Of a stretch of DNA of 64,000 nt, positions 5,459 to 37,860 are shown one piece after another. Source of the stretch: Lentinus brumalis (Eukaryota; Basidiomycota; Agaricomycetes; Polyporales; Polyporaceae). Position 1 is the stretch's first letter. Every line of letters starts with the position of its first letter. The stretch covers positions 620,001 through 684,000 of the forward strand of contig MARA01000004.1 in assembly GCA_001792895.1 (NCBI GenBank), written 5' to 3'. The position numbers were made by a program, and so were the translations under genes. The notes beneath the pieces are model-generated. The model was not told where the DNA came from and made no database searches. It worked only from the letters and a program-made list of their open reading frames with translations.

Positions 5459-6803
5459 TACCTGCGCTACCGCGTACCTTTGTGCCTTATATTATTGCTA
5501 CGGACTTCGCGCGATGATGTAATGTATGACTTGTGTTTCTAATGGGAGGAACTCTACGTATTCGGTCTGATATCCCTTCCGCAACATACAACATTTCGGA
5601 TGCCCGGGAAACTCGGGGATGACCGTTAAAACGCGAACAGAGAGCTTACCGTGGGTCAGGGTCGGTCCTTGTAGGACATTTTCACCGTCCTCGAACGCAA
5701 CGGCACCCACACATGGACAACACCCGTCCCGTCCCGGAATTATGGATGCCCTGGCAACGACCAAAGCACCCGACGCCTGTACACGCTGCCCACAATCGTC
5801 AAGTTCCGGAGAGTCCAACGAGCTCGCTGACATGATTCATGACCTCCTCTTCGGGAGATGGACCACACGCCCCCGCACTGACGCTGTCAGTGGACGTCAG
5901 CATCTTCGCAGTGGCGTCCTGGAGCATATGCTCACGAAGCCCAAGCCTGGGGAGGACGTGGAGGACGTGTGAATGCACACTGTCGCGGATCTCAGGCGTC
6001 GTGCATGGAGTCTGGGCACGGCTGCAGATTGCAACGCAAAGACGCGGACCGGCGAGCACGCTGAGCACACACCAGACGTAAAAATACGCAAGGTCGGTCC
6101 CGGGTGCAAATGGGGCGTTTCCGGAATACCAACAAGAAGATGTTGGTTATGTTCCACTAGCACGCGCTTCTGACCGATGTGCACTCGTCGCTCGCACTGC
6201 GCAAGGCTCAGAATAGCCCCATTGCGCACGAATGCCATTAAGACCGGGTCACCGTATGTCCTCACGCACCAGCGGGCCGCCGCTATCTGTTGTGTGAGGA
6301 CATACGATGTACCCTGTCACAATCATTGAGTTAAACATCGGCCACGGCCGCACGCACCATGTCGTAAGAGATAGTGATCGAGAGCCGTACTGGACATGCC
6401 TGAGTTGGCTGCCTTTCGGCGAACTTCGGGGCTTCTCTCGAACCCTCGAGCCCCGGAAGCATTGACACGGAGCTGACTGGAATACTGGTTCGCATTTGCA
6501 TTGATATCGACAGTATTATCAGATAGCGGATAGTGGGGGCAGAGAACGTCCCTGGGCCCTGAGCATAGAGTTCCACTTCCATCCATAGCATGTTGAGCAA
6601 GCATGGCTCGGCAACAGTGACAGGTGCCGGCCTTGCACACCTGCCCATTACGTGCCGTAAGCGCTGCACTTCTCCCGCACCTCGAGCTTCGTCTGGGTGG
6701 AGATGCCGATGGTCAGTTGCTGGGTGTGCGTCCGGCTGTACATAAAGAAATCAACACTTCGAGCTTACATCCGCATCCGCGATCATCCCGAACATACAGT
6801 GGG
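5459..6803. other. Intergenic stretch, no recognised gene
   Basis: About 1.3 kb between the apyrase stop and the end of the PWWP-like gene. Short open frames exist on both strands (for example minus 5897-6265), and a possible minus-strand splice donor lies near 5649, but I could not chain any of them into a protein with known motifs. It holds one clear inverted repeat at 6253-6306. Confidence 0.5.
6253..6306. repeat. 13-bp perfect inverted repeat (hairpin)
   Basis: CGTATGTCCTCAC at 6253-6265 is exactly complementary to GTGAGGACATACG at 6294-6306, leaving a 28-base loop. It lies in the untranslated gap downstream of both flanking genes. Confidence 0.75.
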
Positions 6804-9800
6804 TCATGCGCCCCCTCTCCTGGTGCGGGTACGAGAATGACGAGCGGCACTGGTCGCCTTTCCCTTCGATTTGGACTTCGAAGACGGGAGCATTGTCTTC
6901 TCCATCGCCTGGCGCATCCGGATGATGTCGTGCACCCAATTGGTCTTCTCGCCCTCTTGCATCGCGATATCGTGGAGGTGTTGTTCCTCTTCAGGAGACA
7001 GAAGGCCCAGGTTCTTGCGTTTCCCCGTGCGCCACAGGAGTATCTGCAGAATGGCCTCCTGCAGAAGCACGTTGTTACAATACTATTTGAATGGCAGGGA
7101 CGATCAGCGGCAGGACCCCCGGAAAAAATCTGGAGCCAATCTGACCGTTAGTTTCTCGAGCGCATCGAGGTCGTGGAATGACCTGCGCGGAGCTGCCGGT
7201 GTGAGTCCATCAGCCGCGAGTTTCTCAACGGTCGGCACTGCTTCTGACGCCTCGTCGACCTGCGCAAGAAGATTCTGCACATGCGCTCACTGTTAGTGCA
7301 AACGGACCGAGGAACGTTTGTGATAGCACATACCTCGGACAGTTTCGATGATGCATCTCCATGACTGACATTCATTGCATCTTCAGGCACGACGGACTGC
7401 AGGTCAATTGTTAGCTCCGTCAAGAGAGTCTCGAGGCTGACTGCTGCACACGCTAACCTCATGCTCCCGATGCTCCTCAGCAGATAGGATCTTCTCATCC
7501 TGGACAATATTCGACGTTGGTCAGACGAAACAACGTATATATCATGTTGAAACCCACGTACATCTGTTCCGATATCGGTCGCTGCAAACGATGACGGCGG
7601 GGCTTCTTCTTCAGATAAGGCGAGGAGCTGTATCGACAACATGAGTGACAAGGTCAGGTAGAGTGTTTATGAGTGACCGGTACCTCAGTCTCCACAGCAG
7701 AGATGTCCGAAGCCGGGGTCAGCACGCTATCCGCGTCGCTGTCCTGAAAATAGAACCATCAATGAGCCACTGCCATAGATAGACATCGAGGGAGCCGACT
7801 TACATGTCCGCGAGACAAGGGCTTTGCTTGCCGACTGTCCGCGGGTAGGTAGAGCTTGTCACGCGGATAGTCAACGCTCAGACCCATCTCAAGCCTTCTG
7901 TCGCGCCGTCTTGCCCAAGACCGCACGTAGTATGCAACCTCTTCCTTCTCCTTCGCATTGAGGCTCCCTCGAAGCGGTATGGCATCGAGGACCTTACGCC
8001 TCGCGCCACCGCCGCGCATGAAGCCTTCGTGGCGGGCTTTCGCCGGACCGTACTCATTGTCGAGGACTGCCGCCAGTATCGGCTTGATGTACTCGAATTC
8101 CTCCGCAATCTCCATATCGTACTGGAACGTCTCCGGACTTGGAGCGGGAAGCTCGGGAAGAGGACTCGGAGAGCGGAGAGTCGCCTCGTCTTCGGGTGCG
8201 AATGGTTGATTGAAGTCTTCAGCACCCTCCAGCTCGTCGAGTACATCATTGTCGTGGTCCAGGCCATAGTTGCCCGTAGACTCTCCAAGCTACGAACGCA
8301 CTCTCGGTCAGTGACTGTCCAGACTTCACGGAGAAACAGAGCTATACTTTGCAAGTTGCGAACTCGTCGTCCGACGTCGTCCAAAACCAATCCTGCTCGA
8401 TCTGCGCCACGGTCCCGTCGAAGAAAATCACCTTGTACTTCGGACGCTGCGACTGCTTCAGCGGCTTGATGTATTCGAGCAATTTCGCAGGCCAGTACTG
8501 TGTTCGGGTCTTGCCCTCCTTCGCCAGTACCAATTCTCCAGGGATCTCGAGCAGCAGGTCAGCTGATGGAGCGCGCCATCGTCGTTGTGGTTGAGATAGG
8601 CTCAGGTCCAAGCCGAATTCGTCCTCGAGGTCAGATTCGACAGCCTTCGCCTTCCCTTTCCCCTTCTCTTGAGCGGCCCCACCACCATTCTTATGCGAAG
8701 CAGACGGTCTCGTTCCGTAACGCGTCGAGGGCGTAAGGAGGTCATCATCGCTGTCCTCGTTCATCTTCACCATGAGGTCCCGGGCCTCCTGCCAGACAGT
8801 CTCGATGTCCAGTTTGCGCTTCTTTCGCGGCGAGGAACGGATAGGGTCCCGGCGAGATGGCCTGTAGTTCTCCTCGTTGAAGCGGACGCGACCATCGAGC
8901 ATCATAGACCGTACATTGGACGCCGACGGCGTACTGATGCTTAGTTTTCGCGGCTCTGAGCCCGAGCCCGGTGGCTCACCAAGAAGCAGAACGCGCAGTA
9001 ACGGTCTCGGCAGCTCAACCTAGAAACATGATAACATTCGCGTGAGCCCGGACACGACACGAGTACACGAGGGTCCATCACAACCTTCGCCGGCCACCAC
9101 AATGTGTCTTCTTCGCCGTTCTCGTCGCAGTCCGTCAGCCGGCCTTGTAGGTCAATGCTGACCCAGACAAGGCTTCCCGTCTCGGCTTCGTCAACGCTCT
9201 CGTCGTCCGTAGAGTCAAGCGGAGCAAAGAGGTTGTCGAGGGACTTGGACTGTGAGACCGGGGCGTGCTTTGACTGGGAGACAGCGGGAAGCTGCGCTTG
9301 GGTCTGAGCCCGCAGGAATTGACGGGCCAGCCTCGGCGCAATGTTCGTTGTCGGAGGGAAGACTTTCTTCTTCACCACTACCTCCGGAGAAGACAGCGGC
9401 GTGAGGTCACCGCCACTGTCTGAACCGGCCGACGAGGAGTGCGACAAGGCTCGTTTCCTGGGACCCTTTCCGGTGGCGATCTGCACCTTGGGAGCTGTTG
9501 AATTGATACTGCGGTCGTCCGTATGCCCAACGTTGTTACGGCGAGTTGACGGCTTGACCGGGTCGTCGGAGGCATCGTCGAGGACTATGATCTCGGGGTC
9601 GGAGAGGGCCAGGGACTTGTTCTCTATGGAGGAACTCGGCGAGTTAGACCTTCCTCGAGAGCGCCTTCCACTCCGCCCTCGTCCGCCACGCCCCGAAGAG
9701 GGTCCGCTATTGGTGGGAAGCTTGTTCGGGGAAGACTCTGTCAAAGATTGTGCCCTGGACAGAGAGCTCCCCGCGTCGCTCGCACCACCAGACCTGGGCG

Positions 9801-14782: not shown

Positions 14783-15250
14783 CTAGAAGGCATGCTCCTC
14801 GACGGCACCGTTCGCAGCAGCAGGCTGGAGATCCGGGCACTGCGCTTTGTAGTGGCCCTTGCGCATGCAGTGGAAGCACGTGATAAGCTCGATGGGGGTA
14901 CGGGTGCGGGGACGAGCGGCGGCGGCAGCGGCAACGAGGGCGACAGTGGACGACGACGACGGGAAGGGGTGCTGGCGGGAGTCCTCGTTCAGGAGGCGGC
15001 GGTGGACGAGCTCGAGCGTAAGCTCGCTCTCCGGGGTCACGTCGAGCGTGACGACGAAGTGCTCGAACGAGGGCGGCAGGCCGCTCGTGAGCACGAGGAT
15101 ATGATCCTCCTCGGTGACTGAAGCTCCGATGGCCTGGAGGCGGAAGACGGCGCGACGGACGTCGGCGATCCACGCGGTCATCGTCTGGTCATCGCGCTTC
15201 CTCATCTGGTAGAGGTCGCGGCGACGCGAGAGACGCGTGCCGAGTCCACG
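14783..15250 (-). pseudogene. gag: C-terminal half of Copia gag (zinc knuckle), separated by the KDZ insertion
   Basis: This is the downstream half of the gag gene whose N-terminal half is at 37327-37597. It contains a capsid-like region (MTAWIADVRRAVFRLQAIG, LTSGLPPSFEHFVVTLD, LTLELVHRRLLNED) and one CCHC zinc knuckle (CFHCMRKGHYKAQC), the RNA-binding motif of retroelement nucleocapsid. It ends at a TAG at 14783-14785. With the KDZ element and one target duplication set aside, the two halves read in one frame, so the gene was intact when it was hit. Family: Copia/UBN2-type gag. Confidence 0.85.
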
Positions 15251-15258
15251 GGACTGGT
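15251..15258. repeat. 8-bp target site duplication of the KDZ element (left)
   Basis: GGACTGGT here is repeated exactly at 37319-37326. The two copies lie at the two broken ends of gag, which is what an 8-bp staggered insertion would leave. Confidence 0.88.
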
Positions 15259-15560
15259 CACAAATATCACTTAGTTTGTTAAACTTTCCCGCATTAGTTA
15301 ATATTAAACATTGTTAAACATTGTCATTAGTCCTCGCGTTAAGACGACAACTAAACCAAATCCATGACAATGGTCTCTGCGTGTTTCCACACTAAACACC
15401 GTTAAACAGTGCTAAACAGCTTGTTTAACCCTGTTTAACCACTCGTTTACGCGCAGTACATATCTCGTTTAACATCAGGGTTTAACCGGTGTTAAGCAAT
15501 GTTAACCACCTCGGGCGCTTCCCTAGTTCAACAAAGTGTTTAACATGGCCGTTCGGTTCT
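15259..15560. repeat. Left end of the KDZ element: TIR and subterminal motif cluster
   Basis: The terminal inverted repeat core CACTTAGTTTGTTAAAC is at 15268-15284. The next 270 bases hold nine copies of TTAAAC or its complement GTTTAA (for example near 15279, 15304, 15313, 15401, 15423, 15433, 15467, 15480, 15539) plus several CTAAAC variants. Such subterminal clusters are typical transposase-binding regions; that role is inferred. Confidence 0.8.
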
Positions 15561-15617: not shown

Positions 15618-18260
15618 CTAAGAACCGCGCGTCTTCCGCTTCTTCGCTGGACCCGACGCCCTGTTAAGTGGTGATTAGCACGAGTTCCAACGTAGGATAT
15701 AACACATACTTCGACTGTGCCTTGTTGCTGTCATCGTCCCCGTCTCTCCGCCGCTTGTTTCCCCACGTGGCATCCGGCGGCGCAGGTGCCTTGGTGGTAC
15801 GGCTGCTCCGCCGTTGCCCAGGCCCAGGAGGTGCCTCCTCAGCCGGCTCTGGGAACACCGCTGTCTCCTTACGAGCCTTCCGCGTCCGCGTCTTCGCACC
15901 GGGGACGACTACAGCGACTGCTGTCGTCTCCGCTGCCTCAGCCGATATGCCTCCAGATTCAGCGTCGGCGTGGCCTTGCCCAGAAGGCGCCTCCGCTGCC
16001 TTACTGGGGGCGGATGTCGATGCGCCTCCCAGTGCGTCAGCAGTCAATTTGCTCCCGCATGCAGTATCCGCGATCGACGAGGCGGAGGCGGGCGGCTGCA
16101 TCGTTCGTTCAGCAGGTAGGGAGACGTTTGAACGTCCCACGGGCGACGCGTTGTCAATGGTGGCTGAAACGGGTGTGGTCGGCGGCGCAGAGTCGACGTT
16201 CATCGCAGCGGGAAGCGCGGCGGGCGTTGAAGTAGCCGGCGCCGCCTCATCCGCCCGCTCGTCAACAGCACGCTCCTCGCGAGGCGACGAGGTCTTCGCA
16301 TTGGTCTGCTCGCCCTCGGTCGACTCGTCATCCGTATCCAAATCTGGGCCTGAGCTCGAGCTCGAGTCCGAGTCCGAGTCGTCCAGCGACATGGGCTTCG
16401 CTGCAGGGGTGGGGGAGAGGGAGGCCGCACGTGGCGAGGGAGGTGCGACCTCTTCACGGAGTCGTGATGGACCAGCCACGGGCGCACGAGTAGGCGTGGG
16501 GAAGACTGTCACCGAGCGGGTCTTCGTAGGCGTCTGGGGGCCGACAGCGGATTGCGATGGAGGAGAGGAATCGGAAGCGGCTTCGGTGGAGAGGAATCGG
16601 AACGCGTCCGGGGTGCCCTGGGCCTTCAGAACAGTAGAATACAAGCTCGCTAATTCGAAGAAGGCGAGCTTCGCAGGAGCATCCGTGATCCGCGTGACCC
16701 ACGATGCCGGCATGAACCTATTCGGCGCGGACATGACGATGAACCAGTCCAGGTTATCGTTCGGGTTGCTGCCATGAGCGACGACTGAGCAAAACGTCAG
16801 TCCATCGCACAAAGGTGAGTTGCGTATCACTTACACCACATGGCAATGAAGTACGCGTCAAGGACGGCGGCACCTTCAGGACAGGACCATCGGTCGTTCC
16901 ACGGGGGAGTACTGGTACACCATCCTCGCTGTACGTGAGAGATGGATCACGCTCCCGATTGGCGCCTAGACACATGTGAGCATGAAGAAGGGGAAAGATG
17001 ACATGAACACGTACGGAGGAAAGCCTGGCAAAAGCGTGCTCTTCGCTCGAGCTCGTGCACGCATGGCCCCCCTCGAATTGCTCGAAGGGTATGATGTCTG
17101 GGTGCTCTCCGACGGTGACGCTGGGACTAGAATGAGACCAGTCCAGCTTTGAGTACAACAGGACTCACTCCGTAGTCTCGATGCTGTTGTCCTTGGCTCG
17201 CCAGGCCGCGAAGGTCGATAGTAGGGACGAACCCAGTGCGCCGGGCTTGTATCCGACTAGCTGACCTGTAACGTCCGCGCCCGTCTTGGGAAATTGTCGT
17301 TGGTTCCTGCTCGTCGGTTAGCCGATGAAAACTCTATCGATTGAACCACTCACTCGTAGTAGTCAACCAAGACCACCTCGAGCCCCTTCGCCTTGAGGGC
17401 TTGTGCCTTGTCCTCCCAAATCCGTTGCTCGGCTTCAGGAAGTGCGGCGTACAGGCGTGCCACGGTTTGACGCCAATTGCCGATGCCAGGCTTCTCGCGT
17501 TCCCTTTTAATGAGGTCAGCGTGCTCGTCCGCCCATAGGGCGCACGATGCTCTGGCACGCGTGTTCGCAGCCTTGATGACAGGAGTGACGTCGATGGGGG
17601 CGTTGAAGTCGTTGTCCGCGTGGTCGGCGGGTGCGGTGGTTAGGCCCTTCGCGCCGGTTACAGTGAGTCCGTTAATGATTTGCCAACCATGGCCGGCCTT
17701 GATCTTCACTTGCGTAAGACGATTGTGGAACCAGTCCCCCACCAGCTGTGGATGCGGATTAGATGGATTATACAGACGAACGAAGAGAAACTACTCGCCT
17801 TGGTGGTTCTTTCGCCTTCCATACCGAGCAAGGGAGTCACTTTCCGCCAAGCCGCCTCCTTGATATTGGTGCGTTCATTCGTAGAGGCGGCAACATAATG
17901 TGGAAAGGCGTCGATGAGGCACTGGTGAGCCTCAGGGTGTTTCGCCCAATTGTGTCGTTTGCGCCGGTGGCGTGCAGCGGCTGGAGGTGGCTGGGCGGTA
18001 TCGGGTGGCGTCTGTGCGCGTTCGTTGCCTTTGCCCTTGCCGTCATTCGGGGCCTCCTCCTGCAAGGCCTGCGCCTCCTCCTGCGCCTTCTTCTTCTTCC
18101 TGCGTCTGCGCGCTTTCTGCGCACCCGTGGGCGGCAGCGTGCGCTTGTCCTTGGCGCCACTTGTCTCCTCTTCCTCGGAGTCGAGGGCCTGCGGTGGATC
18201 GGCAGCAGCGGCAGTCGAGGAAGTTGCCCGCGCGGATGCTTCAGTGGGCGGCGCAGCCAT
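15618..18260 (-). CDS. KDZ-element cargo protein, nuclear, possible DNA-binding domain
   Basis: About seven exons give close to 800 residues. Start ATG at 18258-18260. Residues 1-110 are Ala/Glu/Pro-rich with a strong nuclear signal (ARRRRKKKK). A helical segment follows (HNWAKHPEAHQCLIDAFPHY ... WFHNRLTQVKIKAG), then another with HMG/SANT-like spacing (NWRQTVARLYAALPEAEQR, WEDKAQALKAKG). The middle is a compact domain (VGEHPDIIPFEQFEGGH; NDNLDWFIVMSAPNRFMPAS). The last 350 residues are low-complexity Ser/Pro/Ala/Asp and end after a small exon in PAKKRKTRGS, a second nuclear signal (TAG at 15618-15620). The intron near 17730-17757 uses a GC donor (AAG|gcgagt). I do not recognise the family; a regulator or co-factor of transposition is only a guess. 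No frameshift was needed. Confidence 0.65.
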
Positions 18261-18313
18261 GGTGAGATGGGAGGTGAGTGGCGGGAGCGGGGGTGGTGAA
18301 TGTAGAGGACAGC

Positions 18314-18333
18314 GCAGGTGCTGGAACACCTGC
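18314..18333. promoter_or_regulatory. Palindrome with paired E-box cores upstream of the cargo gene
   Basis: GCAGGTG, a six-base spacer and CACCTGC form a perfect 7-bp inverted repeat 54 bases upstream of the start codon at 18260. Each arm contains a CANNTG core. Regulator binding is inferred from position and symmetry. Confidence 0.35.
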
Positions 18334-18490
18334 TCGGCCGTCAGGCTCAGCCGCGACAAAGCGGCGATCGAGATCTCAGTCCGACAAAGCCTTGGCCCTC
18401 AAAGCGCAGCCGAATCATGCGGGACCAGCCGAAGACAATAGGCTGGGTGATGAAACGAACAGGCATATGATTAATGAAGTACGGGCTACT

Positions 18491-19505
18491 CTAGTCTAGG
18501 ATCTCAACGTACTCGCGTGTCTCGTCGTCCGAGATGTCTGCTACGTCGCGATAACCTGCGCGCTTGGCCTTCTTGCGAGGCATAACCACCTCGGGTGTTC
18601 GCTCGCGCTTCGAAAGGCCTGCCTTCGATCGGCCCGCGCGCACGCGCGCTTGCCAGTACGGCAGCCGAGGCATGTCCGTGACACCGACCTCACGATACAA
18701 GGCGCACTCCGACGGCGCGAGCTTGATTATATCGTCCTCGTGGGTGTGCACCCAGTGGTCCAAGCCCGGGTGCCAGCGCACGAACCGCAGAGGCGCTGTG
18801 TGACTGACGGGATTGCGCCACTCCTCCAACGTAGACATGATCACGTCCTGCCAGAGGGTGTAGTGTACGACGCCGCCTCGACGAGTACCCTTGCCGATCA
18901 GGCAGAGGGGCTCCATGTTGTCCTGTATAGGTTCAGCAGACATACGTGTCACAGAGAATGCCCGACATACCTGCACATAGACTAGAGCTACCACATCGCA
19001 GGACGATGCCGACACGGCGAGCTTGTCCTCCAGCAGAGCGTGCCACAAGACGAGGTCAGCCCAGTAGCTAGGGCGCCGGTAAGGAGGTGGTTTGAACTCC
19101 TTCAGCACGGCAAGGAGGTCCAGCCGCTGATCTTCGCTCATCTGGCGAATGAGAACCTTGCCATGGTTTGCGCATCGGTTCTCCACAGGACCCCTGCACT
19201 GTATTCATAGTCAGTACGGTCTAGAAAATCGTGTATCGGCGACATACCTCGCAGACGGCTAGCCCTACGTTGGCCCACTTCGTCTGGCCATACTCCACCA
19301 CTACTTCGTGTTCACGAGGATCCAGATTCGTACATGGCGGAAGCACCTCCTTCAGATATCGCAGCGAAGGCATACGCTCATTGATAGCGGCCTGAACGCG
19401 AAGGTCGACTTGCGGCATGGCGGTCTTCTGAAAGTACGTGTGGCAAGTGGCCCGCGCCATCTCGATTTTATCCTCGCAGTGGGCAAAGCGTCGCTTGATG
19501 GCCAT
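18491..19505 (-). CDS. KDZ-element cysteine-motif family protein, divergent member
   Basis: Three exons give about 300 residues. The ATG at 19503-19505 (MAIKRRFAHCEDK) is the first usable start; an upstream exon cannot be excluded. The cysteine region reads PPCTNLDPREHEVVVEYGQ ... GLAVCE, then, after an intron ending near 19202, CRGPVENRCANHGKVLIRQ. This matches the C..H ... C...C(K)..VQYL plan of the three genes downstream, but with altered spacing. A region with QDVIMSTLEEW, FVRWHPGLDHWVH and DDIIKLAPSE corresponds to the C-terminal region of the next two members. The tail has a basic nuclear-type stretch (MPRKKAKRAG) and an acidic end. Function unknown; zinc binding is inferred from Cys/His placement. 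The shared dyad element lies about 140 bases upstream. Confidence 0.62.
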
Positions 19506-19647
19506 CTTGCGCGTCGAATGGGCTTGCCAAAGCGACACGTCCGTGCTCGTGATGACGTTCACAGTCGGTACGAGGGGGTCGCCCTCGCCTCGCTCAACAT
19601 GGATGGCTGGGGGACGAGTCGGCTGTACATCCTATCGGGTTGTAGCA

Positions 19648-19699
19648 ATCCGTGGACCTCAGAGTCTTACGGATGCATGGGCTAGAACAACGAGTTCTG
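19648..19699 (-). promoter_or_regulatory. Composite dyad element, copy 1
   Basis: Arms ATCCGT (19648-19653) and ACGGAT (19669-19674) enclose GGACCTCAGAGTCTT, followed by a second small dyad AGAAC-AACGA-GTTCT. Compared with the other two copies, one C:G pair of the stem is T:A here, so pairing is kept. It lies 140-190 bases upstream of the start at 19505. Confidence 0.7.
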
Positions 19700-20350
19700 C
19701 CTGGCGTGTTACATGGTGCTACATCGCGGGAAACGAGTCTTGCGAGCGGGAAGGACGAGTGCGTCCCCGGGATGGTGGGTGAAGAAGATATTAGCGAAGG
19801 GACATAGGACCGTTAAACTGACCGCGGCATCTCTCGTCTCGCTCCCATATCCCATCCTCTCATGCCGGCGGACTCGTCCGAGTTCGGTCGAGGCAGCTGA
19901 GCAAACGTGTCCAGGGGGAGCGATTCAGCGACCGAGGAAGATCGTAGCGACGTCACAAGCGCGACCAGACAGCAGATAGAGTGGAGGGAGTATCAAAGAG
20001 TACAAATTGGACATTGCGTTGAATGCGAGATCGCGGCCGGACGTGCAAAGAGTAGACTCGGACGTCGAGGTGAGAGAGTAGGGATAGACATCCTCGTAGG
20101 CGCCCAAGTAGCGCAATGATTGGTGTACTCATATAAACGACATCGACTGGCCTGCACGTCGCTCGCTGACCTCTGCTGCACGCAAGGCCGGGTCGAAGTC
20201 ACTTGCTCAATAAACGATGACCAGGGTGATTGCATTCAGAGTCATGATACAGGTACGTTACGCAGCGGAAGAGCCCACATTTACATCGAAGTGCGACTGC
20301 AACAAACCTCCGGACAAACTCGGCTACATCAAACTAAGACTATATAACCC
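19700..20350. other. Intergenic space inside the KDZ element
   Basis: 650 bases between the copy-1 dyad and the stop codon of the next family gene. Short open frames only; nothing recognised. Confidence 0.45.
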
Positions 20351-21256
20351 CTACTCGGTCGGAGACATATCCCGGGGAGCCTTCTGCCAGAAATCCGACC
20401 AGTCCGGAACTCCAAGGCCGGCTGCGAACGACATGAGTATATGACCAACGTAAGCAACCTGTAGACACGTACGAGCGTAAGTCGGAAGGTCTGGGAGTAT
20501 CATGACATCCTCCCGCGTCCACACGAGGATGTCGCCGTCTTCCAGCTTGATAGTCTCAGAGCGAATGTCTTTGACACGAATGAAGGACCAAGTTCGACCG
20601 GAGGTAGTGCACCACGCGATCGTCTCGGTGTCCTCCATGTCAGGGCACCAGCCTCGGAGCGCATCGCGCAACCGAGTCCAGGGTAGCACCGTGTAGTGCT
20701 TTGCGGTTTGATTATTCTAGGATAAGTCAGCGACATACGCACGCACAATTGACTGGAGACATCACCTTCTGGTAACCGAGCACGTCCCACTCCTGCAATA
20801 TGTTCGTCACATCGCGGAGGACCGCGGCAGGCAAAGGTTCAGGCAGGGGTTCGAATAAGCCAGGCGGACGTTGAGCATTGAGCTCGGCTAACTCCTTCGT
20901 AGACAGTTTCTGGCTGAGATACTGCACAGCGACGCACCCCTCGCGCCCGCACTAACAGAGATTAGCGACCATCGTACTGTGCTGTCACCGACTGAACTCA
21001 CCTTGCCAATTAACCGACCGTCATTCGTATCTCCCGGCAAGTACTGCACGTCGGTCTTCAGCCGGTGCGAGCACAAGGGCGCCACCGCAGGCTTACGTCT
21101 GGCCAGTGTGCGAGCGTATTCCCTGAAATGCAGCTCGCGCAGTCTGGCGGCAGCGGCGGAACGTCGTTTGCTGGAGACGGAGTGCGCTTGACGACTAGCG
21201 GAGGAGCGTGTCTTGCGCGTGTCAGCAGAGGCTGAGGAGGGGCGTTGGCCAGGCAT
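20351..21256 (-). CDS. KDZ-element GRF-like zinc-motif protein, member A
   Basis: Three or four exons give about 265 residues from the ATG at 21254-21256 (MPGQRPSSASADTRK). A basic N-terminal helix is followed by a Cys/His motif: LCSHRLKTDVQYLPG, NDGRLIGK, intron, CGREGCVAVQYLSQKLS. The order C-x2-H ... N(D)GR-x(n)-C-x4-C resembles the GRF zinc finger found on nucleic-acid enzymes, where the glycine-arginine precedes the second Cys pair. The C-terminal half (LRDALRGWCPDMEDTETIAW, WSFIRVKDI, LEDGDILVWTREDV) is shared with the member at 22289-23105. Stop at 20351-20353. Nucleic-acid binding is inferred from the motif only. An alternative short last intron near 20440-20490 would alter the final 15-20 residues. 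Confidence 0.68.
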
Positions 21257-21550
21257 GATGACCGCGAAGGGGCTAAGCGACTTACACAAAATTCGCTCGC
21301 CCAGCCTTCATATACTTCGGGTGGCCCATCTTTGACGGTTGCTTTGGCCGTGCTGACGACTATGCGCATTACCGCGCCAACTATTGTCCAAGGAGATGTC
21401 GCCGCACAATGGTGAAGCTGCGGTCGGGGCGAGGGGGTAATGCATGTCGCTGGTAGATGGGGAAGGGTTGTCTTGCATGGGTTCGAGCACTATCGGTCCG
21501 CGACTTAGACAAGCACCCTGTGTACATACTGAGATACGTATGCCAAAGCA

Positions 21551-21605
21551 GCACCCGTGGACCTCAGAGTCTGACGGGTGCAAAGGCGAGAACGACGAGT
21601 TCTGC
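21551..21605 (-). promoter_or_regulatory. Composite dyad element, copy 2
   Basis: Perfect 8-bp arms GCACCCGT (21551-21558) and ACGGGTGC (21574-21581) with an inner GAC/GTC pairing around CTCAGA. Ten bases on is AGAAC-GACGA-GTTCT. It lies about 300 bases upstream of the start codon at 21256. Confidence 0.75.
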
Positions 21606-22288
21606 CAGAGAATGGGAGAGGGGAAAGGCGAGAGCTCGGTTGGGGTGCACGCTGTTCGCGAAGCGGCAAAAGATGAACTATGAATTATTATCAGCATAAC
21701 TTAAGCTCTGTGCTCTTACCAGGCTGGCCATCGTTACGCTCTTCTGCGCGCGTGAGAGTCTTCCACAGTCTTGGGCTGCGGACTCCAGAGGTCGTCGTCG
21801 CTGGATGTCGGCACTCCGTCAATGTCGAAAGTCGCGCATGTGTCCAGAGCCGAGACGTGTGTCGCCAGGTCAAATAAACAGGGGGTCTGAGGTCTTAGAT
21901 CATCCAACTAGACGGGGTGGATGTAAAGGACGTTGAGAATGGGAGCCGCGAGAGACTTGGACGTCGTGGACGATGACCAGCATGCCAGCGTCCGTGTAAG
22001 CGCCTATCGTTGCACAACTCCGAGGACCTCGGGGTTCTGGCACACAATGCACATCGCTCCGACGGCAGCCATACCAAACAACTCTCGTTAATAGGTACCA
22101 CGTAGACGTAAGATACAGACAGAAACAATCTCGGGACATATGTATGTACAGCAAGGCACCAAAAAATGATTATGTCGAACCTGCTGCTACACGCTCGACG
22201 ATGCCGGCACAACAGCAGCGATCTCACCAACCCAGAACCATTCCCACTCAGGTCCTTCTGTAATCGCTACGATGATATATATGATTGT
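21606..22288. other. Intergenic space inside the KDZ element
   Basis: About 680 bases between the copy-2 dyad and the stop of the next family gene. Minus-strand open frames (21895-22230) could be a 3' exon of member B but have no counterpart in its paralogues. Confidence 0.4.
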
Positions 22289-23105
22289 TCAGCTGAATTC
22301 CTGGACATAGCTGGAGAACTCACGAGCATAGTCCGCGAGATTCGGGAGGTTGTCAACTCCAGCGCGAGTCCAGATGAGGATGTCGTCCGGCTGGAGGTCG
22401 AGCATATCCCAAGAGGCGTCTTTGACATAGACGAACGCCCATTCGGGCTTAGACTTCGTGCAGAACGCGATGGGGTCGGCCATAGTGAGGTTTGCGCACC
22501 AATCGAGCAACTCGTCCTGCAGCGGTCTAAGCTGCCTCTGGTCCAAGCTCAACCTCGTTGGAGGTTGCTTATCCTGGTAGGAACCTAGTCAGCTACATCA
22601 CGTCGGAATGGCGAAGGGCTCACCGTGAGATATGCGAGAACGTTCCACGCGATGGGCAAGTTTGTGATGTCGGTCAATGCGCTCTCCTGAGCCGACCGGA
22701 TGTTGATGCGAGCGCCGGGACGCTGGGCGTGCAGAGCGTCGAGTTCGGCCCGGGTGAGAGGCGCACTGAGGTACTGTACAAGCTTGCAACCGTTCACGTT
22801 ACACTAAACGAACAGGTCAGCGCATGTTAGGCCGGGGAAAATGTACTGATATCGCGCACAATGCCTACAAATCGCCCATCATTCTCGTTGTGTTTGCGGT
22901 ACTGAATTGAATGTTGGAGTTCGTGGTCGCACACCGGTGGCTGCCGCCTCTTCCGCAAGGCGGCTGCAGTTGCGACAGCTCTATAGGTCTTCCATGCCTC
23001 TCGCTCGGCGGAGGTTTCGGATTCATGAGAGCGCTTGTGGGGAGCCTGGCGAACAGCCTCGCTGGTAGACGATCGTGCTTTCCGGGGGGTGGCAGGAGTG
23101 GGCAT
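22289..23105 (-). CDS. KDZ-element GRF-like zinc-motif protein, member B
   Basis: Three exons give about 235 residues from the ATG at 23103-23105 (MPTPATPRKARSS). Basic Ser/Thr-rich N-terminus, then PPVCDHELQHSIQYRKHNE, NDGRFVGI, intron, CNVNGCKLVQYLSAPLTRAE. This is the same C-x2-H ... NDGR ... C-x4-C-K-x-VQYLS plan as members A and C. After a second intron (near 22570-22620) comes the shared C-terminal region: LQDELLDWCANLTMADPIAF, WAFVYVKDA, LQPDDILIWTRAGV. Stop at 22289-22291, unless a further intron after DYAR extends it. Unlike three other family members, no copy of the dyad element is visible upstream. Function unknown. Confidence 0.68.
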
Positions 23106-23373
23106 GTTGGGGATGGTGACGAGAGCATACGCTCGAGCTCCTGATATACACGCAGAACTCTGTGGCCTCGGGTGTTCGCTTTGAGCGATGTCTGAAGCAT
23201 TGACATACGTCAAAGCCTTAGAAGTGTGGCCACAAGGTGGCGTCGGACCGATGGCGGCAAGTCGCTGCGCGAGACAATCATGGAACTCCTCATCAAGGTC
23301 AAATCATACAGGCACGGTAACTAGATGGTAGTTCTAAGGTACAAGACGGGAGGGACGGGAGGGATAGAGCAAG

Positions 23374-24091
23374 TCAAACTTCGGGGGAAAGAGGGCGCGC
23401 GTCGGCCTCGTCTGCAACAAAGTTAGCTGGGTCACCGCTGTTGGATACGATCTACTCACCGATGTCTAATTCGTCTGATTCTTCTTCAACGTCTGATTCA
23501 ACAGCAGCAGCTTCAGCAGCAGCCTCAGCAGCTTCCTCAGCTTCGAGAGCCGCGTCCTCTTCATCCCCGGTGATGTCCGGACAGTCCCCCTCGATGTACA
23601 AGTCAACATCTTCCGGGTCGCTGTCGTAGCCATGCGCATGAAGCATGTTCTTGACCATCTCCCAGACGCGCGCCCGGCGGCTGGGTCTCACGTACTGGTC
23701 TGCGGGACGGTAGTGGTTCATGCAGTATAACTGGCGTGGGGTGAGGGGTTCGGACAGGTATTGCACGACTTCCTTGTACTTGCAGGACTTCCGGAAGCAC
23801 TGGGAAGGTGTAAGCGCGTGAGCGATAACAGATGGTCATTTTACTCACAATCCCATAATACCTGCCGTCGTGGTTATTCCCAGTGGCGTACTGGACTAGG
23901 CGCACCATCGGGTGTGGGCACAAGGGAGCGATTTCGCGCGCCTGATCCGCGAAGACTCTCGCTATCGCTTCGAAGCGGCGGAAGCGGTCCTTCCTGGTCT
24001 CCCCGCGATAGCGCCTCTTGGCGACCTTCAGAGCGGAGACCGCAGTATAACGAAGCTGAGGGGCGGTGGGTTCAGAGCGAGAGGGCGGCAT
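23374..24091 (-). CDS. KDZ-element GRF-like zinc-motif protein, member C
   Basis: Three exons give about 200 residues from the ATG at 24089-24091 (MPPSRSEPTAPQL). The motif is clearest here: APLCPHPMVRLVQYATGN, NHDGRYYGI, intron, CFRKSCKYKEVVQYLSEPLT. Instead of the C-terminal region of members A and B it carries a strongly acidic, alanine/glutamate-rich tail (EDAALEAEEAAEAAAEAAAV) and ends after a small exon at TGA 23374-23376. The loss of the second region suggests a different partner or a decoy form, which is speculation. The dyad element is about 200 bases upstream. Confidence 0.68.
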
Positions 24092-24284
24092 GGGGAATAC
24101 GAGTGTAGGGTTCGTGCATGGGGCGCGGCGTCTTATAACTTTTGACCAGGGTGGCCCAACAGGTCGCTTGGTCCGAGCACCATTTCCGACAATGGCTTCT
24201 TCCCATAATTCAAGCCAAAAGCTCTGGTCTTGTCTGCGACGCTTTGCTGATGGCGAGTTCAGGCATTGCTCGGCGGGGTCGGCA

Positions 24285-24336
24285 CACCCGTGGACCTCAG
24301 AGTCTGACGGGTGCGAGCGTGAACAACAAGTTCGCG
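24285..24336 (-). promoter_or_regulatory. Composite dyad element, copy 3
   Basis: Arms CACCCGT (24285-24291) and ACGGGTG (24307-24313) enclose GGACCTCAGAGTCTG as in copy 2, followed by GAAC-AACAA-GTTC. It lies about 195 bases upstream of the start codon at 24091. Confidence 0.75.
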
Positions 24337-25025
24337 CAGGAGGGGAGATGATAGCTTGCGTGCAAGAGGTGTTGTGCAGGCAGCTAGGAAGAGAAGGTGT
24401 GATCAGCATATGAGAAGTCGCTTGACATACCAGGGGATGCGGCTTGGCGGACGAGCTCGCCCTGGGCACTGAAGGACTAACATTTCGGGCGGCTTCGAGA
24501 GGGCGAGGAGTTGCGAGCCGGCGGGAGCAAAGATACGAAGCGAGGAGGGGGTGCGTGAGGTCGTGAGGCTGATGCAGGGCGAGACGGAAGTTGAGTAGTG
24601 CACGGTGAGGAGGACAGAGGAGGACAGAGACTTCGCCGTGTGCCAGTCCCCAAGTGCAGAGTCCGACGGCACCGCCACGAGGAGACTTAGACATTTTCGG
24701 CGACCGTCCCTCTTGTGCCCTACGTGTTGCAACCTCCTCGTTCTCCCCCTCCCTCTCCTCCTCCCCTCTCCTCCTCTTCTCACATCTGCGCGAAGGATCA
24801 AGACCCGCCGCATTGCAAGTATTACGGTCGATCAGAAAGACTTTGAGGTCCTCTGATCGTCGTACCTCTGGTGAACTTGTGTTCACCGGAGGCCATCCTG
24901 GCCAGCAAGTGCTCGCAAGTTGAACCAGTCGCTCCTCCTCGTCCACAACGCCCTGGGACCTACCCATCCGTGTCAATCCTCCCATTCCTCATACCCTCCC
25001 CCCTCCCGCCCATCCGCTCGTTGTC
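24337..25025. other. Divergent intergenic region in the KDZ element
   Basis: About 690 bases between the minus-strand Cys-motif genes and the plus-strand companion gene. The right part is CT-rich (24730-24790; 24985-25025), as in fungal core promoters. A minus-strand frame remains open across it but has no motif and runs over the dyad element, so I do not call it. Confidence 0.45.
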
Positions 25026-27100
25026 ATGTCATCTCCGACGGCCCAGGCCAGCTCTGACGGTATGCCCATCCGGCACCCAATGTTAGACTCTGCTGACCTC
25101 GCAGATAGAACCAGCGTGCTCTGACTGGCGTCATGCACTCGCGGTGGCGGACACGGGCGACCCGAAGTACGTTGTCAGTTCACCCAACATCGACTACGTA
25201 CCTTCGCCTCAGGTCGGCATCGTGCAGGTGTTCCTGCGATCAGACTATCGCTACGGCGTGGTTGACCCCATACAATGGCCGCAAATATTCACGAAAGAAT
25301 TCGATTATCTCTGCGCGGTCATGCGACCCACCCCGGGGACACTCGTTACGCTCCTCTATGGTGGAGCCCGGCACATAGCGACTTCGTGTTGTTAGAAGGC
25401 TCGCTCTTCACCTGCCTTGGTCTTCTCAAGCCGGATGCCTTGCGTCCGTTGAGCGACCTTGTAGAGGAGCTGTCTTCTTCCATCCAGGCTGTGTCGGACC
25501 GGACTGCGACTTTGGCGTGGCTCCACCTCGGCATGACCCACGCGCGAGACCGCCTCAAATACTTCCCTTGCACGTTTCGAGACGCCGCTCTGCAAGTTCG
25601 CGAGACTCAGCGGTACTGGCTCATGAGTCAGGCATACATGGAATATCAAAAGTACACGGATGCCTTTGTTGGATCTCCCCAGCCGGTCCATCGCGAACTC
25701 ATGGGGGCGTTCTCCACGAACCCTGTGCATGTCCAGAATCTCTTCAATGCGGGCATACCCGTCTGGTTCATCCGGTCTGATGTGTCTATCATGCAAGATA
25801 CCCGGACAACGGCTACGGTCATTCCTGACAAACCCTCGGAGATCTGCATGGACACGGGTCCTGACGGCGGGATTGTGCTCTACACCGGACTGGCAGGCGC
25901 GGAGCACATCGTGCAAACTGTACGATTCGGAGAGACTTACCTCGACGTCTCGCGCGCACCTTTGCTCGTCATAGATATTGAAGGTGGTTATCCAGCGCAA
26001 CGTTCGGCGAAGGATTACAAGGGCATCCTCGTCGGAGGAAAAATCCCTACTGCTCCTGCCACCAGTTCGGTACCTGTCGTCACGAGCGCTCAAGGTGGCG
26101 CCACCCGCTCGAAGTTGAAACCGGGTCAAAGCGCGAAGACTCCCTGTAAGTAGGATCCCCACGACGATGCTTGTTCTCTTGCTGATATCTTACAGATGCT
26201 CGACCGCACGCCAGCCAAGTGCGCGGCGTCAACAAGTTTGAACACTTCGAGCACGCCTCGATGCCGCCAGAACTGTCTACGTGGCAAGATGCATTCCGCA
26301 GCGTTGACCTCAGCAAACCGGCGCGCCCGAACCCGGAGATCTGGGGGTACTGGATTCCGGAGCCTGCGCTGCTCCTTCGCCCGAAGACCGAGGATCGCCG
26401 CGATCGCTATATAATGACGTGGTTGCGTCTGCGCGCCGGGTGGTTGTATCTTCTACGTCTGCCGGATGTGCCGGTGACCTCTGTTCCCACTCAATGGTGG
26501 AGAGACGTGCTCTTCGGCCCTACTGGGCGCACAGATCGAGATGCATCGACGCTGAACACCAAGCGATGGGAGCAGATCAAGAAGGTTTTCGGCACGATCT
26601 TCGAAGAGGCGCATTTCGACTCCAATCAGTCGGGCCCGATCTGGTGGTGTGGACATCGCGTCCGCAACGTCGATGCGAAGCTTCGCTCCAAGATCATATG
26701 GGAGATGTTTGACCTCGGTTTCCGCTACGAGTTGCTCGCTCTGGACCGCCTCTTCGTTCCTTCCCGCAAAGACCCCCATGGCGAGAAGAAGCGGGTGGAC
26801 ATGCTCGCTGCTGTCTTCCCAGGCCACCATCTGTACTCAATCCCGGAACTGCCGGACGAGGGCGCAGGCTTGAGTGCGCGAGTACCACATCGTCGTGTCC
26901 CCTATCTCGAGGCGTTCCGCCGGGTTGTCTCCCGCTGGCCGAGTTGTCCCGCTCCCATACACGAATCTCCGCCTTTCGCAATCACGATGTCTCACGAGGA
27001 GATTCTTACGCGCGAGAAAGTTCTCGTGAAGTACTACGTGGACACCTTCTTTGCGCAATCCGGACGAGCGCCCATCGTGCCTCATGAATATCCCATGTAA
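25026..27100 (+). pseudogene. KDZ-companion protein (conserved mushroom protein of unknown function), frameshifted
   Basis: The main exons read DFVLLEGSLFTCLGLLKPDA ... up to the intron near 26153-26197, then WGYWIPEPALLLRPKTEDRR, WLRLRAGWLYLLRLPD, QWWRDVLFGPTG, GHRVRNVDAKLRSKIIWEMF, PYLEAFRRVVSRWP and REKVLVKYYVDTFFAQSGRA, ending at TAA 27098-27100. From memory this resembles a protein found in many Agaricomycete genomes, often near KDZ transposases. The 5' part has two problems. The first ATG (25026) with its likely intron gives the wrong phase into ADTGDPKYVVSSPNIDYVPS, and the frame must shift once between YGGARH and SDFVLLE near 25370-25385. The 3' 1.7 kb is clean. A role in transposition is inferred from association only. 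Confidence 0.62.
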
Positions 27101-27447: not shown

Positions 27448-30400
27448 ATGTCCCACCAGAAACCTCGCCGCGGACGTGCCAAGATTTCAAAGTTGTTCTC
27501 TCTTCCACAAGGGACCAACAAATATGCTCTGAGGAACGGTGAGGTCGTCCTCACTGGCCGGGAGCTGCACTACACTGTCCCGGCGGCGCCTGTTACGGCC
27601 TCTACCGATGAGCCCCCGTGCAAGCGCTTGAAGGCTGAGGCTTCGACCACTGCGCAAACGGGATCGGAATGGGTCGATGTCGACGACGAGCAGCCCGATC
27701 CTTCCAACACGCCTGTCGGAGATGACGAGCGCGCCGGGGCTAGTACGTCGGCTGACGGCGTTGATGTCTCGCAACCACCGGACGCAACCACCAAGAGCAA
27801 AGCTCCTCCGAAGAAGGTATGTACGCTTCCCACAATAATGATATATGCGTGGCTGACAGTACGTGCAGTGTACTCCGTCCTCGCAGCTGGAGCAATTCAA
27901 GCCGCATATGGACGCCCTTCTACGAGAAATCCTCGGGCGAGAGCACGATCCGGCCGTCCCGGGCACGTGCGGCACACCGGGCTGTTCGAAAGCCGCGACC
28001 ACACGGTGCATGGAGTGTTACCAACACATGCCACTCTGTCGCGAATGCACTTCCGAGCGCCATCGCAACCTTCCTCTGCACTGGGTTGAGGTCTGGAACG
28101 GCCGTTACTTCAAGCGAACGGACCTCTCCGCGCTTGGTTTGGAGATCCATCTCGAGCATCGCGGCGAGCGTTGTCCCCACGCCACCCTCGATTCCCCGGC
28201 ACGCGACTTTGTCATCGCCCATCACAATGGCGTGCACCAATGCAAGGTCCGGTACTGCTTCTGCCCACCAGCCCGAAACCACTATCCCAGCTCGTGCGCG
28301 CAGGTTCTTTCCCCCGACCGTCGACCGCATGGAGACTGCCTTCACGTTGGAAGTCCTCGACGATTACATCCTCGACTTCGACATTCGAAGAAGAGTGCGC
28401 AGGACTATTGGCGTCGCCTCGTCCGCAAGACGAATGGTCGTTTCCCGGACGACGTGCCCGTGAGTGCAGCCTCCGTCAGATTCTCTTCGTGCGCTAACCA
28501 CCGTCTTGCAGGACCGTTACCGCCAGTTCATGCGCGCCGCTCGCGTGTTCCGTTATCTCGTGATGCTCAAGCGTTCTGGCATAGCGCTCGGGTCGTCTTT
28601 CCGTACCGCGATCCAAAGTCTGTGGTGTTCCCTTGCCTGATTTGCCCGTGGCCGAAGGTCAACCTCCTTCGAGGGTGGAGAGATGTCCCGGCGTTTTTGA
28701 GGTGAGCAACAGTTGTTTGTGTGTGCAGCAGCGTGCTGACAGACGCGTAGGTTCTTGTTCGGCACGTGGAGAGCATGGACGGCAACTACGGCATGTACCA
28801 TAAGCTCAAGGCGCTGACATCAACGACGTTCCCTTGACCGATGGTCAGGGAGTGTTTATGGGATCACAGCGCCTGTCAGAGCTCACTGAGAAGTGGGAGG
28901 AGGCCTGCAAGTCAGACAAAAGCGCAAGAAGAAGAACAAGAAGACGGCGATACCGAAGCAGTCGCGCCACCTGCGCCCGAGGAGCAGGTCGCCGAAGCCA
29001 ACAAGGAGAACGTGCGTCGCGTGGAGGCGGATGCCCAGCCCGTCGCCGACGACAAGGCGGCCAGCCGACCGGAGGCCGAGGAGCCGAAGAGCAAGAGCCA
29101 GAAATCGAAGGGGAAGTCGAAAGCTGCGGAGGAGGAAGACTCCCTGGTGAGTGTTGACACAGCGAGCACGGTCGCGGAATCTTACAGTTTTTGCAGGAAT
29201 ATCTCTGCAACGACTTCAAGGTCAGACGTACGCAGCGAGTAGGTAAGTTCAAGTCCAAGGATATCAGCGGGATCATCTCCGCTGTGTGCAACCACATTAC
29301 GTTCACGTTCGGCGCCACTCTCAACCTCACAACCACCGAGACGTACGTTCTCAGTCTTTAAGAGCTTACGGTCAGCGGGCTGATCCGCTTAACAGCAACT
29401 TTCTCATGGACTGCTGTGCAGCCGCCTCCCTCGACGGTCCGTGAAGGAACTGGACGAGCATGCGATGACTTACGATGTCATCTGCCGCTGGATTCGGAAG
29501 ATACTCGAGCGCTGGGAGAAGCTCTTCCCGGAGCTCATCCCCATCATCAGTCGCACGAAGATGCTGCTGCCATCCATGCACTTGCATGCGCACAAGGAGC
29601 TGTGCCAGCTTGTCTATGCGCTCTGCTACGCCGACGGTTTCGCGGACAGTTACGGAGAGGGTGTGGAGACGCCTTGGCATGAGTTGAACCAGGCCGGCAT
29701 CATCACGCGGGAGATGACCAAGGGAGGTCGCATTGACTGGTTGAACTCGGTCTTCATCGACTGGAACTGGATGAAATTCCTCGGAATGCGTACGTGGTGA
29801 CATCTGTCTCTCTTGCATGCTCCCGCTGACAGTTCCTTAGCGAAGTACCTCGCGAAGAAGCTCCAACAGGCCCATGTAGCGCAGCGTCAGTCCACGCGCT
29901 ATTTCGCTAGCCTGTCAGCCCGAGCGGGTGCCGCCACAGTCAACGAGTGGCTCCAGATCCCGATCGACGACCAGGCACCTACTCCTAACACGTTCAGGCA
30001 GAAGGAGGAGGATTTCCCCGAGAGCGCCCTCCTGCTCAACCGCGAGGACTGTAGTACGACGACCCTCATCTAGTGGACATTGGTTGCTGACATTGCTCGT
30101 AGTGCCTTCGTCCGACACTGCGTTCGAGGACATTGTCAAAACCGCCGTGACGTCAGGCACCACGGGCCGAGACAACGCATTGTCGGCTAGCCGCAGCCGG
30201 ATGGCGGTATTTATCAAGAACGGCCTCGAGCTGGAGCGCGAACTGTGCGTGTATTACCGTCCTGCGTTCACGGCTGACTTGGAATCTAGAGCGCATTTGC
30301 GTTATGCCCGCACGCAGCACCAAGCCAAGGCGGATGTCCTCGACAGTCACCTGTATGCCGGCGTGACGTGGAAGAGCTTCCGCAACAAGCTCGTCCGTGG

Positions 30401-37138: not shown

Positions 37139-37318
37139 AAACATCATGTTTAACGGTGGTTAAACGTCGATATAACCAAGCTGTTGTAGCCGCATGTCTG
37201 GCAATGATCCAAAAGCGTTTAACTAGGGTGTTTTGGCCCAAGCATGTGCTAATGTACATGTTAAACATGGCTTAGCATTAACTAATGTACCATGTTTAAC
37301 AAACTAAGTGAAGTCACT
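37139..37318. repeat. Right end of the KDZ element: subterminal motif cluster and TIR
   Basis: Five TTAAAC/GTTTAAC motifs (near 37148, 37159, 37217, 37260 and 37294) in 160 bases, then GTTTAACAAACTAAGTG (37294-37310), the exact complement of the left TIR core. Eight more bases reach the element boundary at 37318. Confidence 0.8.
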
Positions 37319-37326
37319 GGACTGGT
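37319..37326. repeat. 8-bp target site duplication of the KDZ element (right)
   Basis: GGACTGGT, identical to 15251-15258. Confidence 0.88.
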
Positions 37327-37597: not shown

Positions 37598-37860
37598 GAT
37601 GGGGACGAAGGGGGACGAATGGACGAGACGGGGTTCGAGACGGACGAGCAAGACGTACGGTTCAATCGGGGTTCGCTTGCGGGTTCAACGGGGCCGCAGT
37701 TCGATCGGGGGTTCGTGCGCGGGTTCAGCGGGGCCGCGGTTCAATCGAGGGAGTCGTACGACGGGTTCAACGGGGCCGTCGGGTTCGAGAGCGAGTGGAC
37801 GGTGACTTCGGCCTCACCGGGCAGTCCTCGGATGACCTCCGAGTAAGGTGAACGCGATTG

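Follow-up and report, generated by a model that had tools for sequence, protein, structure and literature searches.

Cargo genes and paired leader hairpins of a KDZ transposon in Lentinus brumalis, and their counterparts in Ty3/gypsy-type retrotransposons of the same genome

The window analyzed here, 64,000 nt of contig C71 of Lentinus brumalis (MARA01000004.1, positions 620001-684000), carries a DNA transposon of the Kyakuja-Dileera-Zisupton (KDZ) type with four consecutive minus-strand cargo genes, A to D (Table 1). Comparison of this element with the rest of the assembly (53.4 Mb, 136 contigs) revealed several characteristic features: (i) on sequence grounds genes A, B, and C clearly form one family, which is associated with KDZ elements, (ii) the cargo proteins are under selection, (iii) two hairpins, H1 and H2, both supported by covariation, precede genes A, C, and D as well as a divergent plus-strand gene, and (iv) such hairpins recur in retrotransposons, in an AUG-free leader with a coding signature.

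The models of genes A-D were assembled manually, with reading frames and splice sites as guides, and every one of them gives a single open frame to a stop. In all four genes, intron 1 (phase 0) stops immediately before the third metal-ligand Cys, which is the first of the C-terminal Cys pair; a phase-0 intron 2 is common to B, C, and D. An earlier sequence-only reading, which had described four minus-strand genes in a row with an intron between the two Cys halves, one gene being diverged, was therefore correct on these points. The diverged gene is D, where the pattern of A-C is lost and C..N..H..NVG..C/C-x7-C is found instead (the slash marks intron 1). The NDGR element, said to run through the family, is present in B and C, but is HDGR in A and NVG in D. 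Similarly, a C-terminal region ascribed to three genes is common to B and C, which are 41% identical in exon 3, the value for D being 22%; the acidic tail reported to replace this region is indeed seen in gene A.

Protein searches with A or B find each other and C, never D, and copies of D are the sole matches of a search with D. We infer the kinship of D to A-C, in the absence of significant sequence similarity, from introns 1 and 2, the position and neighborhood of the gene, the hairpins, and a short C-terminal motif. A search of the PDB with the A/B/C profile gave no match up to E 10. An AlphaFold prediction for exon 3, made for B together with C and D, was poor (pLDDT 51) and was set aside.

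Family members were found at nine places in the genome, comprising four clusters and five further loci. The copies of the four-gene cluster lie on C71, C126, C46, and C57. Between the C71 and C126 copies, identity is 99-100% in the leaders and in genes B and C but drops to 89% in D; between those on C71 and C46 it is 97-99% around A and 69-84% in B. These shifts of identity at gene boundaries make the clusters mosaic and point to recombination or gene conversion between copies. Some copies are broken by frameshifts (A and C of C126) or a stop (C of C46). A lone D-like gene at C35:521-522k has the same intron and a similar C-terminus, and matches the D copies at E 0.01-0.07; further D-like genes occur on C54, on C82, and in a second C35 element (C35:791-794k), and another family member was located at C126:1307k. 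C54 and C82 each hold a second member of weak similarity (23-24% identity, E 0.001) roughly 1.5 kb farther along, as does C35 after some 16 kb, at C35:810k. Thus, arrays of at least two family members are common in these elements, the largest seen having four genes. The shared intron position had been taken as a mark of duplication inside the element. Tandem duplication is supported, but intron 1 is older than the duplication that gave A-D, because the D-like relatives at C35:521k, C54:358k, and C82:2508k have the same intron. The gene adjoining D has a look-alike in the equivalent place at C35:520k and is therefore probably element-borne too.

The ratio of nonsynonymous to synonymous substitution (dN/dS) was calculated for the five non-identical comparable pairs of B, C, and D (gene B of C126 is identical). 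It was 0.305 and 0.267 for gene B (versus C46 and C57), 0.279 for gene C (versus C57), and 0.314 and 0.354 for gene D (versus C126 and C46). For exon 1 of gene A the values were 0.65 versus C46, with few changes, and 0.54 versus C57. Full-length A, C versus C126 and C46, and D versus C57 were left out because of frameshifts, stops, and exon placement. With nine genomic places and dN/dS below 1 in the pairs compared, the A-D cluster is more than a chance arrangement.

The KDZ transposase gene of the element has a CxC2 cysteine cluster in its N-terminal part and a KDZ core, in agreement with the earlier assignment of A-D as cargo of a KDZ element. Among the 63 genomic matches listed for the KDZ core, the nine best (C71, C57, C46, C126, C115, C35, C54, the second C35 element, and C82) have at least 46% identity and the others at most 36%. 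Eight of these nine have a copy of the plus-strand partner gene 3.3-9.5 kb away, with a family member on the far side of the partner gene; the nearest family member lies at 5-12 kb. Correspondingly, eight of the nine family loci are KDZ-linked. Homologs in ordinary gene space, which would have spoken against the earlier reading, were encountered at one of the nine loci, C126:1307k, where the closest of the listed KDZ matches is at a distance of about 32 kb. A genome search with the partner gene gave no match by the C115 KDZ copy, and the partner-gene relatives on C90 and C102 have no KDZ match on their contigs among the 63 listed. In the C71 copy, the frame of the partner gene changes near 25330, owing to a break or an unrecognized intron, while the C57 and C35 copies are one long frame. 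Copia-type gag frames (PF14223) flank the KDZ element at 37304-37681 and 14783-15313, both on the minus strand.

Table 1. Features of the KDZ element in the window (64,000 nt); the slash in the motifs marks intron 1
Feature	Position	Strand	Remarks
Gene A	23374..24091 (exons 24091-23849, 23799-23460, 23411-23374)	minus	3 exons; C-P-H, HDGRYYGI/C-x4-C, VQYLS, acidic tail
Gene B	22187..23105 (exons 23105-22860, 22803-22624, 22573-22324, 22266-22187)	minus	4 exons; CDH..NDGRFVGI/CNVNGCKLVQYLS; C-terminal domain ends DDILIWTRAGVDNLPNLADYA
Gene C	20351..21256 (exons 21256-21002, 20951-20766, 20716-20473, 20421-20351)	minus	4 exons; CSH..NDGRLIGK/CGREGCVAVQYLS; B-like C-terminal domain
Gene D	exons 19505-19248, 19198-18971, 18922-18491	minus	3 exons; diverged, type seen in related elements
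Gene adjoining D	17706-18398	minus	MAAPPTEASAR...
H1 before gene A	24286..24312	minus	H1 model E 1.7e-11 (training-set member)
H2 before gene A	24317..24337	minus	
H1 before gene C	21553..21579	minus	letters identical to H1 of gene A
H2 before gene C	21585..21606	minus	
H1 before gene D	19648..19674	minus	training-set member
H2 before gene D	19680..19701	minus	
H1 before plus-strand gene	24831..24857	plus	H1 model E 3.5e-07, outside training set
H2 before plus-strand gene	24866..24891	plus	order H1-H2
Plus-strand partner gene	25087..26153	plus	no Pfam match
Open frame with CxC2 cysteine cluster	27857..28702	plus	N-terminal part of KDZ transposase gene; PF18803 E 1.8e-11
KDZ transposase core	29393..29797	plus	PF18758 E 9.9e-24

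Neither the paired hairpins nor the link to retrotransposons had been noticed in the sequence-only reading. A repeat of about 52 nt ahead of genes A, C, and D folds into H2 (stem-GAACUYGUNGUUC-stem) and H1 (stem, A-GACU-CUGA-GGUC-C, stem). An H1 model built from nine sequences also finds counterparts in the C126, C46, C57, and C35 elements. The H1 of the plus-strand gene has a fully paired stem, AUCAGA/UCUGAU, that is unrelated to the other H1 stems. The D-like genes of C54 and C82 are likewise preceded by H2 (GCGAACUUCUGUUCGC) and, in the same order, by a hairpin shaped like H1 whose loop differs; this H1 was found by inverted repeats and by eye, which is weaker evidence, and the loose scan that detects it also picked out two further H1-shaped window sites, neither of which is H1.

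The evidence for the hairpins is covariation, as folding of single sequences is weak (z -1.1 to -3.3). In the H1 alignment, 14 distinct rows have 93.6% of cells paired and 5/10 pairs changed on both sides; the covariation score is 0.408 versus 0.093 for shuffled alignments (0/500 as high), and slid alignments reach at most 0.104. For H2 (11 rows, unedited), 94.5% are paired, three of the five pairs are changed on both sides, and the score is 0.335 versus 0.089 shuffled (0/500; slid maximum 0.100). The H1 alignment excludes the plus-gene H1 of C126, which is one base shorter, and the C54/C82 H1; that of H2 excludes C82 and C54; and both exclude a third gypsy subfamily described below and identical rows. 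An alignment with bulged bases removed by hand was not counted. Known kinds of RNA and a coding origin were also considered. ARAGORN found no tRNA gene in the window, and Rfam gave no match there at the gathering threshold; three chance-level matches (E up to 10) in 18000-25500 do not fall on the hairpins. A coding origin is rejected because the frame xSDSEVHG, open in A and C, runs into a stop at the hairpins of D and of gypsy family 1.

The exact H1 core, GACTYTGAGGTCC, occurs at 46 sites in 53 Mb, and the reversed pattern at one. These sites comprise 25 retrotransposon leaders, 11 leaders of A, C, or D, 3 plus-gene leaders, 1 relative on C35, 1 solo leader, and 5 sites judged by eye to be stemless (C43, C47:582k, C49 twice, and C54). 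Of the retrotransposon sites, 18 were assigned from their flanks (L021-L028, L030-L038, L043) and seven from a match to the gag N-terminal protein adjacent on the appropriate strand. The solo leader, L009 (C46:65439), is of D type, with H1 and an altered H2 and no recognizable family gene behind it. In this exact-match genome scan, which a diverged H1 would escape, the H1 core with a stem was not found outside these elements.

The order of the hairpins is H2-H1 before A, C, D, and the C35, C54, and C82 genes, and H1-H2 before the plus-strand gene and gag. Since both orders occur, the likeness is not simply that of one inherited leader. In every linked case seen, the hairpins are on the sense strand. 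This orientation bears on the proposal that H1 and H2 act as DNA, either as an inverted-repeat operator or as sites of a transposase or of replication. Such a role would suit their position between divergent genes, where promoters lie, and the imperfect palindrome that H1 forms across its length. Nevertheless, the centre is fixed while the arms vary complementarily, and a double-strand DNA site would not need a near-constant loop with stems that change together; moreover, the gypsy copies lie between the long terminal repeat (LTR) and gag, within the presumed transcript and outside the LTR. We regard this proposal as distinctly unlikely. The 5' position and sense orientation of the hairpins, together with loops that stay constant while the stems covary, speak for recognition at the RNA level.

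One of the retrotransposon leaders belongs to the LTR element L042, with LTR stretches at 671-1039 and 6551-6920 that are identical in two blocks, and with reverse transcriptase, integrase, and chromodomain-like frames recognized by eye. The stretch 1037-1052, after the LTR, can pair with the region in which the RNA presumably starts (857-872), as in self-priming Tf1-type elements. The sequence thus suggests a self-priming Tf1-like retrotransposon in which 1037-1052 would be the primer site. H1 (1204-1230) and H2 (1238-1265) lie between this self-complementary stretch and the ATG at 1938. From the putative RNA start to gag (857-1937, 1081 nt) there is no ATG in any frame; none of 2000 shuffles was free of ATG, the mean being 8.6.

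The frame in line with this first ATG is open from a CTG, which stands in the context ACA-CTG-GAT in gypsy family 1, to which L042 belongs, and GCC-CTG-GAT in family 2. The L042 H2 ends 15 nt before the conserved CTG. A CTG-GA[TC] with a purine at -3 is present at 17/17 retrotransposon loci among L021-L038, and also in L043 and L070-L073. In 14 copies, a set that excludes the short L024, the CTG-to-ATG frame has 24, 23, and 49 variable sites by codon position, and in eight of them it is in frame without a stop; between families 1 and 2, dN is 0.51 and dS is 2.1, the latter being near saturation. The codon-position pattern, the open copies, and dN below dS indicate that the leader frame is coding, and it is probably started at the conserved CUG. 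It encodes C-x3-NHxFH...DHHW...DQRWYICDQQPCP in family 1 and C-x3-NHVFH...DHHWNNRDRQFYICDEQPCP in family 2, as a probable N-terminal extension of Gag.

The best comparison of this Gag domain was with A/B/C (P 0.0026, Prob 12%), with scores reached by 0/400 free shuffles and 3/400 with the ligand columns fixed; against the GRF zinc ribbon, P was 0.011 (4/400 and 5/400 shuffles). The Gag domain and the cargo domain may be of common descent. Families 1 and 2 (L023 versus L025, ~1517-1787) are about 94% identical on either side of a stretch, bounded by H1 and the end of the zinc motif, that BLAST leaves unaligned, as if a module had been swapped. A third gypsy subfamily (C44, C59, C125, C94) has kept the domain and H2, with one base changed in L072. 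Another repeat family (L074-L079) is probably a retrotransposon as well; the copies read have a Cys motif, DCDQQPCPN, and 6/6 leader stretches of about 1000 nt contain a single ATG.

The apparent module swap is one reason to consider the hairpin pair as a translation element (an entry site, a shunt, or an aid to non-AUG starts) that unrelated elements would share through recombination, with the zinc-motif proteins acting otherwise. The short distance from H2 to the conserved CTG in family 1 would fit as well, and so would the ATGs of the cluster leaders, which would need bypassing. However, the AUG-free gypsy leader is compatible with plain scanning, so that no bypass is needed there, and the cluster genes begin at ordinary ATGs 142-296 nt past H1. 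On balance such an element seems rather doubtful to us.

The motif of the cargo proteins had been called GRF-like, with a first pair C-x2-H. The actual spacing is C-x-H (C-P-H, C-D-H, and C-S-H in A, B, and C), and it is this spacing that fits GRF domains, in which, as described in PMC9369019, the first two zinc ligands are one residue apart, Cys then Cys or His, and NxGRxFY precedes the third Cys. Gene D does not fit. Where NxGRxFY would be expected, B and C have N-D-G-R and A has H-D-G-R, without Phe at the set place. Like the cargo motif, the GRF zinc ribbon (PF06839; Top3, NEIL3, APE2, ZCCHC4) has C-x-[CH], about 14-15 residues to N-x-G-[RK], and then Cys and Cys, and one NEIL3 repeat has C-N-H. 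Unlike GRF, genes A, B, and C have VQYL after the fourth Cys in place of the aromatic cluster FFxW, the Phe of the motif is placed elsewhere, and no likeness was seen outside the motif. PF06839 matches none of A-D, none of the relatives on C35, C54, and C82, and neither of two gypsy domains searched; in the genome it finds C93 and C82:851k above and C90 below the cut-off. The GRF protein of C93 reads CDCGNPAAERTVTKESENKGRRFWTCGNNGGCKFFQW and gene B reads CDHELQHSIQYRKHNENDGRFVGICNVNGCKLVQYL, the ligand spacings being one residue apart. In hhalign, the A/B/C profile aligns with GRF in the same register (P 0.0078, Prob 5%), a score reached by 3/400 free column shuffles and 16/400 with the ligand columns fixed; for the D-like profile, P is 0.024 (3/400 shuffles both ways). 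The likeness in ligand spacing and N-x-G-R is thus suggestive. It weakly supports a GRF-like mode of action and does not allow filing under PF06839. The cargo proteins probably bind zinc.

The sequence-only reading had likened the motif to binders of single-stranded nucleic acid and had suggested a role in transposition or counter-defense. In one version of it, A-D would be GRF-type binders of single-stranded DNA that aid KDZ transposition, the hairpins being unrelated. The GRF-like ligand spacing with N-x-G-R in A-C and the close KDZ relative within 5-12 kb of eight of the nine family loci speak for this proposal. It leaves unexplained the conserved hairpins before the same genes and the similar motif in a retrotransposon Gag extension, and we think it quite improbable.

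The reading that we favor, tentatively and at less than even confidence, is that A-D-type proteins bind hairpins on the transcripts of their own element, as Gag does for packaging. A-D would be small element-borne proteins, probably RNA binders, whose zinc-ribbon-like motif reads C-x-H ... NDGR ... C-x4-C in A-C, and their targets would be H1 and H2 in the 5' leaders of the element's own, presumably transcribed, A, C, D, and plus-strand genes. By binding these hairpins the element may control, export, or protect its messages as a group. In the Ty3/gypsy-type elements of the same genome, H1 and H2 would lie in the genomic RNA between the primer site and gag, and the similar motif would be carried on an N-terminally extended Gag, probably CUG-started in the AUG-free leader, where it would probably serve to select the genomic RNA to be packaged, to balance translation against packaging, or both. 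This RNA-binding reading is preferred because a C..H..C..C motif accompanies the hairpins in both classes of elements and because ZCCHC4 provides a precedent: its GRF domain is described as a CHCC cluster needed for RNA binding, with substrate choice of the enzyme depending on a stem-loop (PMC6834594).

Several observations weigh against binding of the hairpins by these proteins. Motif and hairpins are not paired one-to-one: the H1 model finds no H1 in the leader of gene B, the plus-strand gene has hairpins and no recognized zinc motif, and the L074-L079 family has a Cys motif and no recognizable H1. The H1 loop has decayed in the third gypsy subfamily, and on C54 it is AGGACUACGUGUCG (one base off on C82), which the H1 model misses. 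The motif is least GRF-like in the D-like genes, whose leaders bear the hairpins in the elements examined; their profile and that of A/B/C do not recognize each other (P 0.69), and the Gag domain compares with the D-like profile at P 0.046. Against GRF, the profile comparisons fall far short of significance (Prob 2-5%). The leaders of A, C, and D contain four, six, and two ATGs, respectively, between H1 and the gene, which makes their transcript structure uncertain. Finally, all comparisons are confined to one genome.

A different outcome of RNA binding would be that the family shields the RNA of the element and thereby counteracts silencing by the host (RNAi or quelling). Hairpin binding and multi-gene arrays are consistent with this, but the sequences seen, in which no search was aimed at it, gave no direct evidence for such counter-defense and indicate no silencing factor, and we consider it highly improbable. 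A bolder extension of the favored reading is that the cargo of the DNA transposon and the Gag extension of the retrotransposon use related zinc domains on the same two-hairpin leader, as one shared RNA code. We regard such a code as unlikely on the present sequence comparisons. If it does exist, a DNA transposon would mark and manage its mRNAs much like a retroelement marking its genome, and the four cargo genes would form an RNA regulon within it and could in principle package or hijack retrotransposon RNA, or the reverse.

The packaging signals of retroviruses and retrotransposons are leader hairpins between the primer site and gag, and their Gag proteins have zinc domains. The gypsy elements described here share leader hairpins in this position and a zinc-type motif on Gag; they differ in that the C-H-C-C motif is N-terminal and the hairpins also occur in a DNA transposon. 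In the glycoGag of MuLV, Gag is N-terminally extended from a CUG in good context, as described in PMC5778647; the gypsy case differs in that no AUG occurs anywhere in the leader and that a zinc-type motif is part of the extension, the use of CUG being suggested by sequence. Certain fungal mRNAs, RPL12 among them, have structured 5' leaders, for which PMC8216456 proposes autoregulation through binding of the encoded protein. Those belong to ascomycete host genes and are mostly single copy, whereas the structure found here is common to mobile elements of two classes. With its CxC2 cluster and KDZ transposase, the element resembles other KDZ transposons of fungi. A 2025 survey of TET-bearing elements deals with TET/JBP genes, and its account of those KDZ elements does not describe the cargo family or the paired hairpins (PMC12730594). 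Our literature search, made on titles and the openings of abstracts, mostly in openly accessible journals, and hence not proof of novelty, found no description of this family or of the hairpins. The H1/H2 pair provides a search model for other basidiomycete genomes. In the usual view, DNA transposons are recognized at their DNA ends; if the shared leader structure is recognized, the present element would add self-recognition of a DNA transposon at the RNA level and an exchange of modules between element classes.

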